A stretch of 45,337 nt of DNA, from IMG/VR virus record IMGVR_UViG_3300024432_000025, positions 1-45,337 of that record. One strand, given 5' to 3'. Made by a program: the position numbers and the translations under genes. Origin of the DNA: a virus. Positions 3,577 to 39,317 of this stretch are shown here, piece after piece (the stretch's first letter is position 1; the number at the start of each line of letters is the position of its first letter). The notes beneath the pieces are model-generated. The model did not search any database. It was given only the letters and a program-made list of their open reading frames with translations, and was not told the DNA's origin.

Positions 3577-3607
3577 TAGCGGAAGGATTAGTGAAAGGAG
3601 TGAAGGA

Positions 3608-3700
3608 ATGAACACACTTTTACAGGTGAGATGGTCACTTGCGGTGGAGCAAATGACCATACTCAGTAAAGCAAGAAAGCTAAAGAAAGGAGGTAAGTAA
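3608..3700 (+). CDS. 30-residue basic peptide
   Basis: A short frame with GAAGGA before ATG; the C-terminus is lysine/arginine-rich (KARKLKKGGK). It ends directly before the ATG of the next membrane peptide, whose Shine-Dalgarno AAAGGAGG lies inside its last codons. It could be a leader peptide coupling translation of that gene. Function unknown. Confidence 0.45.
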   Translation: MNTLLQVRWSLAVEQMTILSKARKLKKGGK

Positions 3701-3784
3701 ATGAGAATCAATCCTTGGATCGTTGCTCTAATAATGGCTGGAGTACTACTGATCGTAGCTTATGCTCTGTGGATAGCACAATAA
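3701..3784 (+). CDS. 27-residue single-span membrane peptide
   Basis: After MRINP the peptide is almost wholly hydrophobic (WIVALIMAGVLLIVAYALW), a single transmembrane helix. The AAAGGAGG site is good. It is one of several one-helix peptides in this genome; roles such as membrane perturbation or superinfection effects are possible but unshown. Confidence 0.6.
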   Translation: MRINPWIVALIMAGVLLIVAYALWIAQ

Positions 3785-3797
3785 AAGGAGATACCAA

Positions 3798-4169
3798 ATG
3801 AACTGTGGTACCTGTAGGAAAGAGATTGGAACCAAGGAGGAAACATCATACCAAGTTATGAGGGGAGCAGGATACCTTGGGCCTGCTGTAGTTATAGGAC
3901 ATTACTGCGGGGAGTGTCTATCTAATGGGGTCAGTGAAGTAGACATAAAAGCTCTTGTAGAGAAGTTCATAGTGAGTATATCCTCCGAGGGAGGGGAATC
4001 TCTAAAAGACCTCGTAGAAGTCATGGTCTCAGCAGCAGACTATATCCTTACTCCACAAGAGATGACAGTGGAGAACTTGGGGAGTATCTGGGATAGGTTT
4101 GTTACTGTTAGCTACGACAACTTCATAGAGTCAGCGAAGGCTATTGTTGAACAACTAGAGAAGGACTAA
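3798..4169 (+). CDS. Zinc-knuckle hypothetical protein
   Basis: 123 residues. An N-terminal CGTC pair (residues 3-6) and a CGEC pair (about 37-40) form a four-cysteine zinc site; the rest is acidic and helical. An AAAGGAG site lies eight bases before ATG. No wider similarity is recognised. Confidence 0.7.
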   Translation: MNCGTCRKEIGTKEETSYQVMRGAGYLGPAVVIGHYCGECLSNGVSEVDIKALVEKFIVSISSEGGESLKDLVEVMVSAADYILTPQEMTVENLGSIWDRFVTVSYDNFIESAKAIVEQLEKD

Positions 4170-4170
4170 C

Positions 4171-4467
4171 ATGGGTGGTAACATTACAGTAAGGCTATGG
4201 ACTAAGGAGGACTTAGCTCGGATAGGTAAGGACAGGGAGCTAACAACTATATTTATGAATGTCAAGTCCTTCAGCCAGGAGATGCTTGCCTACTATCCTT
4301 ACCATCTCCGCCATACCTATGTTACATATTGGGTTGGTGAGGAACTAGCAACCTTCTATGCAACTGATGATGAGATGGCAGTGTGGTTCTTGAGACAGCA
4401 GTATGTAGTCCTTCCCTACTCACTACAAGAGAAGACCACTACATGGAGGAAGGTAGAGACCGTATGA
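4171..4467 (+). CDS. Hypothetical 98-residue protein
   Basis: It follows the previous gene after one base, and its stop overlaps the next ATG (ATGA), so it is probably coupled. It is aromatic-rich (YYPYHLRHTYVTYW) and soluble. No motif or family is recognised. Confidence 0.65.
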   Translation: MGGNITVRLWTKEDLARIGKDRELTTIFMNVKSFSQEMLAYYPYHLRHTYVTYWVGEELATFYATDDEMAVWFLRQQYVVLPYSLQEKTTTWRKVETV

Positions 4468-4670
4468 CTGGAACACTAGAGTCTATTGAGTTCCCAGTCA
4501 ACAAAGCAGTACGAGAGATAATAGACCTAATGTGGCCAAACCCCAGAAACGTACCCCTTTCCCAGAAGTCCCTGGACAAAATACAGGTACTCAAGAGCGT
4601 CCTTCAGGGAGTGTATGATGAGGGGTTTCAAGAGGGAGTAGACGACAACAATAAGGATTTTTGGGAGTAA
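4464..4670 (+). CDS. Hypothetical 68-residue protein
   Basis: The ATG at 4464 is chosen because it overlaps the upstream stop and has AGGAAGG upstream; a longer frame from 4383 would overlap the previous gene heavily. The protein is acidic at the C-terminus (FQEGVDDNNKDFWE). Its layout resembles the next gene (short helix, conserved L-x-x-L spacing, then an acidic tail), and the two may be distant paralogues. Confidence 0.6.
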   Translation: MTGTLESIEFPVNKAVREIIDLMWPNPRNVPLSQKSLDKIQVLKSVLQGVYDEGFQEGVDDNNKDFWE

Positions 4671-9570: not shown

Positions 9571-9711
9571 GACAAAATAAGCTGCCAATAGTGATTACCT
9601 ACTGGCAGCTGGGCCTCGTTGCCAAAGCAACAAGGGGAGTTAATTGTGGATAGTGCTAGCTGACAGGGCCAGCTAGTAGCCTCAACTGAGGCTACCCTAC
9701 CCACTGTGCAC
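9571..9711 (-). ncRNA. Candidate phage small RNA of about 140 nt
   Basis: It has a consensus promoter upstream and an intrinsic terminator at the end. From 5' to 3' on the minus strand: an 8-bp closing helix (9697-9704 with 9646-9653) encloses a hairpin at 9676-9695 (GTAGCCTCA arms) and one at 9656-9676 (CTAGCTG arms, 7-nt loop). Then come a single-stranded CTCCCC stretch, an 8-bp tetraloop hairpin at 9615-9634, and a long hairpin at 9580-9610 followed by TTATTTTGT. There is no start codon with a ribosome site inside. The CTCCCC stretch could pair with GGGGAG-type ribosome sites, suggesting riboregulation. It matches no RNA family I know. Confidence 0.7.
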
Positions 9712-9717
9712 AGCCCA

Positions 9718-9746
9718 ATTATACCACAAGGAGTCCATAATGTCAA
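9718..9746 (-). promoter_or_regulatory. Promoter of the small RNA
   Basis: TTGACA (9746-9741), a 17-base spacer ending TTGTGG, TATAAT (9723-9718): full consensus with an extended -10. It lies back to back with the virion-module promoter 20 bases away. Confidence 0.85.
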
Positions 9747-9765: not shown

Positions 9766-9794
9766 TTGACTAATTAGCAGAAGTGTGGTAGTAT
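9766..9794 (+). promoter_or_regulatory. Promoter of the virion module
   Basis: TTGACT, a 17-base spacer ending TGTGG, TAGTAT. It reads into the terminase small-subunit gene after a leader of only about ten bases. Confidence 0.75.
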
Positions 9795-9810: not shown

Positions 9811-10395
9811 ATGCAGCAACTTGCCGACCCCTTAGACGAGGGAATTAAACAATTCCGGGGACAGAAGAGGGAGTTTCTACTTCTCCGTGTGTCGGGTCTT
9901 GATAAGAAACAAGCCCTAATAACATCGGGTACTCCGGAAGGCACATATAACAACTGGCTTCACAAAGACCCCCGCTTTGTAGTGTTCTACAGGCGTGTAG
10001 ATGAGCTTAGTGTTTCCCATCGTAAGCAAGCAATTACCTTTTTGAGGAGGGATAACCAACTCCAAGCAGTCCTTCTTGAGGGGAAGATCATAGATAGGAT
10101 GAAGGAGGAGGTAGAGTCTGGTGAGTATGTGTTACTCCGAACCCACTTAGCCAGGGAGGTCTACACCAGGCTACTTAATGAGGTGGATTTCCAGCCTGCA
10201 ATTAGAGATTTAACTTGGGAGGACAAGAGGAAGCAACTATTTGTAGCAGGGGATGTGGTTCATAGGGAAGGAGACATTATAGATGGTGAGTTCACCGAAG
10301 CAGAAAGTAGCGAGGAGACGCAATCTACAAAAGGCTTTGCTCTCCCGGAAAGTGAACAAGGGTCTCCACAGACAGAGGAGACGAATAAGGGCTAG
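9811..10395 (+). CDS. terS: Probable terminase small subunit
   Basis: 194 residues directly upstream of the large terminase. The N-terminus (EFLLLRVSGLDKKQALITSG) resembles the helix-turn-helix DNA-recognition part of small terminases, followed by a helical region that would oligomerise and an acidic, Ser/Glu-rich tail after residue 150. It would recognise the packaging site and stimulate the large subunit. The call rests on position and fold pattern rather than a diagnostic motif. It ends in TAG, and the same frame stays open through the next basic peptide. Confidence 0.65.
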   Translation: MQQLADPLDEGIKQFRGQKREFLLLRVSGLDKKQALITSGTPEGTYNNWLHKDPRFVVFYRRVDELSVSHRKQAITFLRRDNQLQAVLLEGKIIDRMKEEVESGEYVLLRTHLAREVYTRLLNEVDFQPAIRDLTWEDKRKQLFVAGDVVHREGDIIDGEFTEAESSEETQSTKGFALPESEQGSPQTEETNKG

Positions 10396-10541: not shown

Positions 10542-12053
10542 TTGGTTCTTCAGATAGATAAGATTAAAACTATTGAGGAGCTTCTCTACATAGATAACAA
10601 AGAGGGCATTGTTGTACCTTTCAGTGGTAATAGGATGCAAAGGTACTACCAGAAACACAAAACTAACCGTAATATAGTGTTAAAGCACCGGCAGGGGGGC
10701 TTTAGCTCTTTCATCCTAGCGGATATGTTTATAGACTGTATTACAGTACCACATTCTATCTGTGCGGTTGTATCCCATGAGGGGAGGGCAACTCAAAGGC
10801 TCTTGGATAGGGTACATTTCTATTATAAAGCAATGGATGAGCCGAAGCCACAGACAGGAGCTGAGAGCCGAAGCGAAATTACCTTCCCTGAGCTTCATAG
10901 TAGTATTTATATTGGTACAGCAGGCTCCAGGGCATTTGGTCGAGGTGACACGATCCGGAAAGCTCTCCTATCCGAGCTAGCCCACTATGAGGATGGAGAG
11001 CGTATCCTAACAGGTGTGGAAGATGCTGTCCCTCTTACAGGAGAGCTTATAATTGAGTGTTCCCCTCTAGGAGAGGACAACGTTTTCTACAGTAGGTGGG
11101 TGAAAGCTCGTGAGGGTAGGTCTCCTTATAAGCCCTTCTTCTTCCCTTGGTGGTGGACAGAAGAGTACCAGATACCGAGAGACCCTCCTTCTTATATCAA
11201 TATCCTTCCTGAAGATCGGGGAGAGCTTACTTATACCGGGGAAGAGCTTGAACTAATTGAGAGACATGCTCCACCTTGTAAGTATTGTCCAAGTGAGTGT
11301 GGTGAGCACTTTACCGAGGCCCAAATACGGTGGAGAAGGTGGAAGATTGCTGAGAAGGGGGGTCTTTTCTTCCAAGAGTTCCCAGAAGACGAGGTATCCT
11401 GCTTCCTAACTGTTGGTGACCCTGTGTTTGACCCCTATATTCTCACAAGTTTAGCTCAAAACTGCTATGAAGGGGAGTATCACACCCAAGGATGGACATT
11501 TTGGAAGCCCCCGGAAGAAAAGATGCGGTATACCATAGGGGCAGATACCTCAGCAGGGGCTCCTGGTGGTTCTTACTCTGCAGCAATAGTTCTCAATGAT
11601 AGATGGGAGGTATGTGCTACCTTTATGGGCAGGTTGGAGCCTCATGTGTTTGCTGGTATACTAAAAGAGCTAGGAATATGGTATAATAGAGCTGAAATAG
11701 CGGTAGAGAGGAACTTTACAGGCTATGCAGTGCTTGGCCACATGAAGGACTACCCAAATCTCTACCACCAGAGAGATTTTGTTACAGGCAAAGTAACTAC
11801 CCAAATAGGATGGTGGACTAACGATCAGACTAAAGAGTACATGCGGACTCGTTTGAAGGATAAGTTGCCTCAACTAAAGCTATGGGATGTTAATTTGGTC
11901 AGACAGATGAGGGGTTATAGGTACATTAAGTTCCGACCAACAGCTCAGACCTTTGATGATCTAGTTATAGCACTAATGATTGCGGTAGCGGTTAAGTCAG
12001 TATCAGGAGGCTCTTATGGGTACCAAGGTTCTTATGACAATTGGGGTTGGTAA
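10542..12053 (+). CDS. terL: Terminase large subunit
   Basis: 503 residues, TTG start with AGGAGGT three bases upstream. The ATPase half shows a KHRQGG Walker A-like loop (48-53), VVSHEGRATQRLLDR after it, and LLSELAHYED in the Walker B region. The nuclease half shows IGADTSAG (about 330, metal-binding Asp), AEIAVERN, and FDDLVIALMIA near 470-480, the RNase H-like set seen in phage terminases. A cysteine cluster (CKYCPSEC, near 245) is an extra. It would translocate and cut DNA during packaging. The family call is confident. Confidence 0.9.
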   Translation: MVLQIDKIKTIEELLYIDNKEGIVVPFSGNRMQRYYQKHKTNRNIVLKHRQGGFSSFILADMFIDCITVPHSICAVVSHEGRATQRLLDRVHFYYKAMDEPKPQTGAESRSEITFPELHSSIYIGTAGSRAFGRGDTIRKALLSELAHYEDGERILTGVEDAVPLTGELIIECSPLGEDNVFYSRWVKAREGRSPYKPFFFPWWWTEEYQIPRDPPSYINILPEDRGELTYTGEELELIERHAPPCKYCPSECGEHFTEAQIRWRRWKIAEKGGLFFQEFPEDEVSCFLTVGDPVFDPYILTSLAQNCYEGEYHTQGWTFWKPPEEKMRYTIGADTSAGAPGGSYSAAIVLNDRWEVCATFMGRLEPHVFAGILKELGIWYNRAEIAVERNFTGYAVLGHMKDYPNLYHQRDFVTGKVTTQIGWWTNDQTKEYMRTRLKDKLPQLKLWDVNLVRQMRGYRYIKFRPTAQTFDDLVIALMIAVAVKSVSGGSYGYQGSYDNWGW

Positions 12054-19800: not shown

Positions 19801-19869
19801 CGTAGTATGGTTCCAGGAGCCACCTGGAAAGACATCCTAGCAGAAGAGGCAAAGGGCTTGACAGAGTAG
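13810..19869 (+). CDS. Giant 2,019-residue virion-associated protein
   Basis: The single uninterrupted frame takes 13% of the genome. Residues 1-480 are mixed alpha/beta. About 510-590 and 600-690 hold hydrophobic stretches (STALAIGWITKNPTLGLAAG; AMISIGPIAAVGGGASVY). About 760-840 is helical coiled coil, and about 970-1010 is a Pro-rich linker (PPVEVPPAEGAPP). The remainder is long and helical with a further hydrophobic stretch near 1715-1770. There is no lytic transglycosylase, peptidase or polymerase signature I can see. Between portal and scaffold, with membrane-active segments, it best fits an internal ejection-type protein that enters the cell with the DNA; that is inference. Confidence 0.7.
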   Translation: MTEPSPLFKIPEFPTLYGEEERKRQAKLAEQKSQIEELFRTKFDVEAWANLPGPERAIREFIAKSEGPVSFSGFAGLVSPWEWGFDYGVIPSQARERQQEVEAEYDELIRKEKVTTVLPLIQNTLRILAMAGESVPGDFDSFFKLDKLDFTPEEKAYLYRFEMSLKFAKPEELLSGEPWGLRKASLEEIEAATREEPGAKLTPNQALSTIALSQDTEAIRMGLMMAYPPVMVEPPDDRRDAIIKLYNEQITALAEYLGVSTTLEEPIKETAGKVFEKLAEDRPVLIYDYNLGGIHVANRKPDNSVWSRGRQADQKLLGYYDEDQKHVVPIAPDGEPITNNDTLLDKAKDLASKFFQLGFGKPYKTSIPGIMFGIAKSLDEPEDLEFLAHNLHRLAGESGLSTELFIKTYVPSGISSAVADMLIEGGAPPEYIKAKREAGVPSVPWATGVKKMNEDLQSIFTQSYEQRTVEHFEWLEEHPEFIPKPSWQVPVTEVIRDNPELLKNPYYIAYLTSDSLIYTGAFLSTALAIGWITKNPTLGLAAGVAVTTPQATHDLYQELLNYIPPEDAARLAISMGAVISSVEVVGGVPVISAILPSVFRGLRRGIQKEVVALTFKRLALKGIKTFGTIEVMETMEEILQEALHNATIRWFDETRDIFANMPEVAIRAMISIGPIAAVGGGASVYHESKLQLPEKVKEQLDTDTQTLVEAGLPPDQAELAAYNKVVSTDQGIAEVQVAQEKALDQRPFTQARQNNNREVLEQKLEAVNNDLEAISRSLVIHRKRSVGMELLSVEHAEILKTMGFLEDQVPELQATKARIVEQLRALNTEPELPTPPEATRTFPIDKVITWKRQQVSEATSPLDKSFLNQELRDLLQSKQQGKPTVPEEYFRDVRTKELVVPPELQPVPLELLPEVVPPSRASYIRTGMREFRAQASETLTRTEERVQRKVLNERYDSEYDVPPGILIGQVPEGVVEAPPVEVPPAEGAPPIVPPIKPPAPPGETFPIPEESDPEVREILSRMALAKAARRVGKYLEELGVTPDILEGTLDTLPSPISLEDELASANEVFSDPKFQSYLRVDPNVQAARRLAEQELFRVQLESANAEESKDPDQMSIAKQAVKSYTNRVGLRPQDVLTTFWKDLTPAQQRRATTAHIPNGSIILDREDPIIGKVLSRATLNLEDMRYLFANLEGWSGEPFHRIHERIVTLKSYALRLQDMYLEEITKNPTFKHILPDEASWDRVTTERESRNPDSGVSPPSDLTDVERSLADTIDSRYRKWEPYERYLRFVRAYKISDNPTTIQEELTNPHYPEQAPPIEELEKAVRIYEQYGKDTLWLYLKDKTWGVVPQGYSPRVRHKMSLFPTQLPLGATRGTGRLMSRTALESPPAQEKNPVSQLDSYNASMLTMLLLEEEIDALARSIQNTEQIWSAPDQVETIMRNFLTELQGVPQEGGWLFDIIQTAQRYAFTIFVQPDKGIRNILQPLMAFPFRHRLVTGYYEFPNLPAPFRKKASIVFADLVDESGRALREWMFFTGRKGLTANPFELMARVCERLPLMAWTDKGSRMWEFLALVPKTWGASEQYVKDGNVDKWVRDSGANTLTRKQQEYAVWLLAQQEVNWVIPGLQDLTGPEAAGFWVTRQVITNTLYTYRRWGMAPAHHGVTGRAVGSLLNFPRSTAQYIVRLFEKTADPESSMRDRTEAVRKIAFLWLFSEISNVILKCLLGGKRDEYGLTNMLLWEIGGLSLSAAREATEAITETILALIGSGEEKERAWTRLSTVLPSTFNLMLGFYSIAWDVVELMQKEGGGLDAFYIRRIRALIDDSYGGPKEREKVERTWLEAFQKVVAGTDPPEPDILEQILIDLDTEIERLGGMILVGDEFTTDDVYTTKQLGGRIDAILKRGSPTWVHKDNRFPNIAIFRQECTDGWKPYEILSSKPASIRREWRLNHFEEEAKMIFWGKYSFKASPFVTDPGLRKEGKAMELLKLIDLYKIEFNLTRSMVPGATWKDILAEEAKGLTE

Positions 19870-19886
19870 ATTAAATGTGGTATAGT
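19858..19886 (+). promoter_or_regulatory. Promoter of the scaffold-capsid genes
   Basis: TTGACA overlaps the last codons of the giant gene, then a 17-base spacer ending ATGTGG, then TATAGT. A dedicated promoter would raise capsid and scaffold output over the upstream genes. Confidence 0.8.
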
Positions 19887-38807: not shown

Positions 38808-38866
38808 AGCAACCCCCTATGCTCAGCATATACCTCCCAGAAACTAAGGGCCTCTTCGGTTGAACC
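38804..38866 (-). pseudogene. Displaced 3' end of the Sak4-like ATPase gene
   Basis: The frame reads STEEALSFWEVYAEHRGLL and stops. SFWEVYAEHR matches SFWECYREYRN near the end of the ATPase gene that lies just upstream of the homing endonuclease, and its stop overlaps the next gene start. It overlaps the 3' end of the homing endonuclease gene in another frame. It is best explained as the original ATPase terminus, displaced by the insertion. Confidence 0.55.
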
Positions 38867-39317
38867 CCTTTGCTTGTTGGTAGAACCACTCTCTTCTCTG
38901 TAAGGCTTCATCAGAAGTAACCTTGTATCCATCTTTTCTTGACCCCCTCATCCTTTCCCTATTCTGCTCTTGCTTCAATCTCTGGAACTCTATACAAAGC
39001 TCAGCAACTTTCCTCTTCACCTTCAAGTAAGGGACTAACTCCTCAAGAGTAGATAAAGCCTGCCTGGAGTTGACAGTCCAAGTAAAACACTCCTTGCAAT
39101 TAGCTTTCCTTTGACTGGAGAGGATATGTCCCTTCCCTACTACCTCCTGAATCCAATAGATAATAGACTCATCCGTGTTACCTACTGTTAGGGCAAGCTC
39201 ATAGGCAAAATATCCTGGTCTGCAGGCACTATCAAGTGTTCTATGAATCTTGTTTATCCCTATGCAGCCCTCACCATCAATGAATCCGGCTAAGTAGATT
39301 GCATCTTCAGTTTTCAT
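38844..39317 (-). CDS. LAGLIDADG homing endonuclease
   Basis: 157 residues with one LAGFIDGEGCIGI motif (9-21; Asp and Glu for metal binding), so it would act as a dimer. A second half with conserved W and basic residues (RRMRGSRKDG region) fits the single-motif family. There is no strong ribosome site; a possible TTGACA/TATGAT promoter overlaps the ATPase gene end. It lies at the 3' end of the ATPase gene, whose original terminus seems to survive downstream. A free-standing mobile gene. Confidence 0.88.
   Translation of the reverse strand: MKTEDAIYLAGFIDGEGCIGINKIHRTLDSACRPGYFAYELALTVGNTDESIIYWIQEVVGKGHILSSQRKANCKECFTWTVNSRQALSTLEELVPYLKVKRKVAELCIEFQRLKQEQNRERMRGSRKDGYKVTSDEALQRREWFYQQAKGFNRRGP

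Follow-up and report, generated by a model that had tools for sequence, protein, structure and literature searches.

We wondered what an uncultivated phage, represented by the IMG/VR virus record IMGVR_UViG_3300024432_000025, might encode between its virion genes and its leftward gene cluster. The whole record of 45,337 bases was analyzed and is referred to here as the window. Its rightward virion genes are headed by a terS-like gene (9811-10395), orthologues of which precede terL throughout the family; terL itself, a PHROG terminase large subunit, lies at 10542-12053. Leftward from 9398 follows a group of small genes, the leftward cluster, whose first gene occupies 9398-9015. The gap of about 412-413 nt between terS and this cluster holds three promoters and a predicted transcription unit:

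9766-9794, plus strand: promoter before the terS-like gene 9811-10395, TTGACT-17-TAGTAT with TG, weaker
9746-9718, minus strand: promoter P1, TTGACA at 9746-9741, 17-nt spacer, TATAAT at 9723-9718, extended -10 (TG), 12/12 consensus
9574-9711, minus strand: predicted 138-nt noncoding RNA, starting about 6-7 nt past the -10 and ending in a U-rich tail
9531-9503, minus strand: promoter P2 of the leftward cluster (first gene 9398-9015), perfect TTGACA-17-TATAAT

A perfect promoter sequence faces a stretch without a gene

An initial annotation of this DNA had described a perfect TTGACA-17-TATAAT promoter with an extended -10, firing leftward into some 140 nt without a gene. Both parts held, as P1 matches the consensus at 12 of 12 positions on the minus strand and no AUG was found in the approximately 138 nt of predicted RNA downstream of it. 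Within one mismatch of TTGACA-17-TATAAT, the whole window contains six sites where 0.29 are expected. The unit lies, as annotated, between the virion promoter (9766-9794, plus) and the leftward cluster promoter (9531-9503, minus). The annotation had added that a regulator would act at such a place; here the location was borne out, and the argument goes no further than position.

An extended core, GTGGTATAAT or GTGGTATAGT, is common to three of the strongest promoters (2629-2657, 9718-9746 and 19858-19886), as if reflecting a single preference of the host sigma factor or common ancestry. Between the terminator described below and the -35 of P2, the minus strand carries a direct repeat, GTCTACAA, at 9573-9566 and 9544-9537 (29 bp apart), a possible candidate operator.

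The predicted transcript is strongly folded and ends in a terminator-like hairpin

Folding of 9711-9574 gave -68.6 kcal/mol (z -6.14), with centroid and minimum-energy structures in agreement. The initial annotation had judged five helices plus a full transcription unit very unlikely to arise by chance and had proposed folding as a check; none of 200 shuffled sequences folded as well. The predicted structure, all on the minus strand, comprises:

9646-9704: 8-bp closing helix (9704-9697 with 9653-9646) around two hairpins, in the minimum-energy and centroid structures
9696-9675: first enclosed hairpin, 9 bp
9674-9658: second enclosed hairpin, 7 bp
9636-9645: 10-nt linker AAUUAACUCC, single-stranded in the predicted fold
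9614-9635: 9-bp hairpin with a UUUG tetraloop
9574-9610: hairpin resembling an intrinsic terminator, 12 bp with a loop of 7 nt, -19.9 kcal/mol, tail UUAUUUU

The 8-bp helix enclosing two hairpins was thus recovered as annotated, as was the terminator hairpin followed by U residues. Two details needed correction: in the likely transcript the tetraloop hairpin exists but is 9 bp long instead of 8, and of the supposedly unpaired CTCCCC the last CC is paired, the single-stranded stretch being AAUUAACUCC. CTCCCC is wholly free only when the transcript is extended by six bases upstream from its likely start.

The fold does not depend on the terminator, since the RNA without it still reaches a z of -5.0. 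Computed on partial transcripts, the 5' domain attains its final fold after 66 nt have been made. The predicted RNA is also a GC island, with 51% GC against 29% and 38% in its flanks; such islands are a signature used for finding noncoding RNAs in intergenic regions (PMC8723152). The hairpin at 9574-9610 is the only convincing terminator-like site within 8.5-11 kb, in a scan that returned two sites overall against 2.3 in shuffled sequence and hence no excess; its U tract is interrupted (UUAUUUU).

In a fold scan across the whole window, every other 140-nt segment was higher in energy, the runner-up reaching -59.2. When the best-scoring segments were refolded with 300 shuffles, only segment 2521+, a hairpin lying between the promoters of another pair, equaled the z of the RNA. 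Segment 10991+, with an apparent z of -9.5, was discarded when its value dropped to about -4.1 with more shuffles.

The other pair consists of divergent promoters spanning 2518-2657 (2546-2518, minus, TTGACA-17-TACAAT; 2629-2657, plus, TTGACA-17-TATAAT). Between its two members is an inverted repeat, AAGTCCCCT...AGGGGACTT, which contains the perfect palindrome TTAGAACACTTGTTCTAA, a fit to the GAACNNNNGTTC LexA/DinR-type box; the repeat may represent a damage-responsive operator. Elsewhere in the window, a LAGLIDADG endonuclease domain at 38844-39317 inside the leftward replication cluster is probably a free-standing homing endonuclease.

Strand bias of the fold points to RNA

Inverted repeats are symmetric in DNA, and terminase recognition sites are often near terS. 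The repeats might therefore function as DNA next to terS, as an operator or as a site for packaging or recombination, and the promoter would be a coincidence. We compared the two strands of the same DNA and found that the minus strand folds to -67.7 kcal/mol and the plus strand to -54.5 (z -3.2), about 13 kcal/mol apart. The minus-strand structure contains 40 Watson-Crick pairs (24 G-C, 16 A-U) and five G-U pairs, one per helix; it has neither A-C nor internal mismatches. A G-U pair on the minus strand corresponds to a C-A mismatch on the opposite strand, and symmetric DNA under no selection should gain both equally. The 5:0 ratio (one-sided sign test, 1/32, for a structure that was itself picked on the minus strand) is modest evidence for selection on the leftward RNA. 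Since the opposite strand folds worse and the non-Watson-Crick pairs are G-U in all five cases and never A-C, the folding would belong to the leftward RNA and not to a DNA palindrome. The element is, moreover, absent from relatives with the same terS and terL, and we consider a DNA-level function very unlikely. A packaging RNA resembling phi29 pRNA was ruled out because relatives with the same terminase do without the RNA.

The related phages found lack the RNA

Relatives were collected from IMG/VR by two scans based on terL and one based on terS, which yielded about 36 loci readable upstream of terS, several of them near-duplicates. A single-query scan with terS returned no relatives, and the family came from the terL and alignment scans. 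Comparison of terL with GTDB genomes gave no match and hence no clue to the host. In most of the approximately 36 relatives, the rightward terS promoter stands back to back with a near-consensus leftward promoter, and P1 sits where they have the latter, approximately 65 nt before terS. In relatives for which terS and the p9018 gene could both be placed, 136-323 nt separate the two, versus about 412-413 nt in the window.

Neither blastn, nor a single-sequence covariance model, nor inspection by eye found the RNA in these relatives. Mutations that break the helices without compensation had been named as what would speak against the RNA; the related loci were read, and there was nothing to compare helix by helix as they are without the RNA altogether. 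Loci L015 and L016 carry a strongly folding stretch upstream of the leftward promoter, which is not a transcript from that promoter. The extra ~200 nt of the window thus appear to be a lineage-specific insertion or a sequence that has evolved beyond recognition. Homology of the P2 leader to the relatives' leaders was considered and rejected, as the P1 and P2 leaders are both unlike them (z 1.05 and 0.26) and a profile search was negative. With neither leader matched in relatives, the added and the ancestral promoter could not be assigned.

Broader searches returned no homologue. Rfam release 15 at gathering threshold reported only a tRNA in the whole window, and relaxed thresholds gave only chance-level matches at the locus. 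Distant blastn against phages and plasmids found no homologue of the RNA. Degenerate motif scans of viral and genome contigs, which need exact seeds and would let distant homologues escape, gave 0, 0 and 0 matches, or chance matches that the covariance model rejected. The covariance search proposed in the initial annotation was run with a model built on one sequence, which has little power for diverged homologues; it found none and thus gave no covariation support. The collections searched may omit records very near the window.

Upstream of terS in five relatives (L051, L023, L005, L018 and L054), the leftward transcript has a conserved leader, approximately AAAGNTAGNTNCAAANCTACGNTGTAATATA, which scored z 7.1 and 4.3 against shuffles for two members; a profile search did not find it in the window. 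A CAGGYTATTTG-like motif recurs in or near the interval separating the terS promoter from the leftward promoter in L020, L036, L018, L014 and L006 and is a possible candidate operator of the phage group. In L005, terL appears to be interrupted at 3595-4570 by an in-frame insert, after which the match resumes at residue 173, approximately 1 kb further on; the insert is probably an intein. The terL matches of L037 and L039 are broken in a similar way.

Ribosome-blocking RNA, terminated leader or stand-alone RNA

The initial annotation had further proposed that CTCCCC pairs with ribosome-binding sites, so that the RNA would act by blocking them. The linker is indeed partly complementary to G-rich start regions, with a best duplex of -15.5 kcal/mol at gene 38807, and its internal 10-mer complements slightly outnumber those of shuffles (p about 0.035). 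Over 75 start regions, however, the mean duplex of -9.6 equaled that of shuffled segments, 55% of which were at least as good, and the best duplex is weaker than the shuffled median best of -17. A generic 16S anti-Shine-Dalgarno sequence pairs better with these regions on average (-11.4), the CC end of CTCCCC is paired in the transcript, and the adjacent genes (-11.6 and -10.3) do not stand out as targets. Perfect 9-11-nt sense complements of the linker show a weak excess, their count being reached by 3.5-14.5% of shuffles; they sit inside genes or transcripts, away from the tested start regions, and the longest, 11 nt, lies within a gene. The pairing proposal was therefore not upheld, and ribosome-binding-site blocking through CTCCCC seems unlikely to be the function of the RNA.

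The main rival is a serious one. P1 may be a strong promoter, early or late, whose transcripts normally end at 9610-9580 and are extended into gene 9398-9015 and past it only through antitermination, by a Q-like protein or an RNA similar to HK022 put. In that case the short RNA would be a by-product or a regulatory leader, as in lambda pR'-6S-tR' or Gifsy-1 IsrK. This possibility has to be taken seriously because the unit points at the leftward cluster, with its terminator directly upstream and in the same direction, and because it stands where relatives keep their cluster promoter, approximately 65 nt before terS. The two adjacent hairpins at the 5' end also recall the two-stem putRNA just past PL (PMC9378689). 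The cluster, however, owns the perfect promoter P2 downstream of the terminator, and none of the approximately 36 relatives has a comparable structured, terminated unit at the site. No antiterminator family was detected among 28 window proteins, a subset of the genes, scanned with Pfam. Forbidding the 3' arm of the terminator left the upstream fold unchanged, with no competing antiterminator fold. Taken together, a terminated leader is conceivable but on the whole improbable.

We favor, with somewhat better than even confidence, a noncoding RNA of about 138 nt that is terminated, stands alone and would act as a folded, phage-encoded small RNA. That the predicted terminated RNA exists at all is likely; that it acts in trans is about an even call, and we infer trans action as well as its transcription and stability. 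As the unit carries a terminator and the next genes have the perfect P2 to themselves, it would not be needed to express them. Of the private transcription unit originally annotated, the promoter, strand-specific fold, terminator, GC island and lack of a start codon stand, and the pairing with ribosome-binding sites falls away. The main sigma70-type RNA polymerase of the host would start at P1, and the transcript would fold during synthesis and stop at its own terminator, 48 nt before P2. The folded body and the linker AAUUAACUCC might then bind a host or phage protein or a transcript, rather than block ribosome-binding sites in general. It is doubtful, if conceivable, that this is an undescribed class of RNA, one that a single phage lineage gained in the gap separating terS from the leftward cluster and that serves as a folded, protein-binding regulator of host or phage factors.

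Discussion

The lambda 6S RNA (pR' leader) resembles the present unit in that a strong promoter gives a terminated RNA of small size, directly followed by an operon that is read in the same direction. It differs in that the present operon has its own perfect promoter past the terminator and no Q-like protein was detected among the 28 scanned. Lambda OOP and P22 sar are likewise short phage RNAs made separately at regulatory crossroads (PMC12197685). OOP is antisense to cII and sar to ant, whereas the RNA described here overlaps no gene on the opposite strand and perfect sense complements of its linker do not exceed 11 nt, so it is not of the antisense type. Gifsy-1 IsrK is a short RNA heading a phage operon, possibly in terminated form (PMC4825925); IsrK has a long mRNA isoform, a point on which the predicted RNA may differ.

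HK022 putRNA offers two neighboring stem-loops just downstream of a phage promoter. It is approximately 70 nt long, constrained in sequence, and acts in cis on the nascent transcript to suppress terminators (PMC9378689). The present RNA, in contrast, carries its own terminator and holds its two hairpins inside a closing helix, an architecture that sets it apart from putRNA. To the trans-acting PreS, VpdS and SprY (PMC12197685) it is similar in size class and proposed trans action, but no sequence relation to them was found.

A review (PMC12197685) covers small RNAs of phages that possess a promoter and a terminator of their own, and at the level of sequence the present RNA would work like them. 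It has the promoter, the terminator and the lack of coding capacity of a phage-encoded small noncoding RNA, understood as a kind and not as a homologous family. It would thus be an orphan phage-encoded small RNA that belongs to none of the systems compared, and it is at present a well-supported candidate. A unit of promoter, fold and terminator with strand-biased G-U pairs can be detected from one genome without homologues. If transcribed, the RNA would be compact, noncoding and an orphan within a group of uncultivated phages and, as other members of the group do without it, a lineage-specific regulatory addition.
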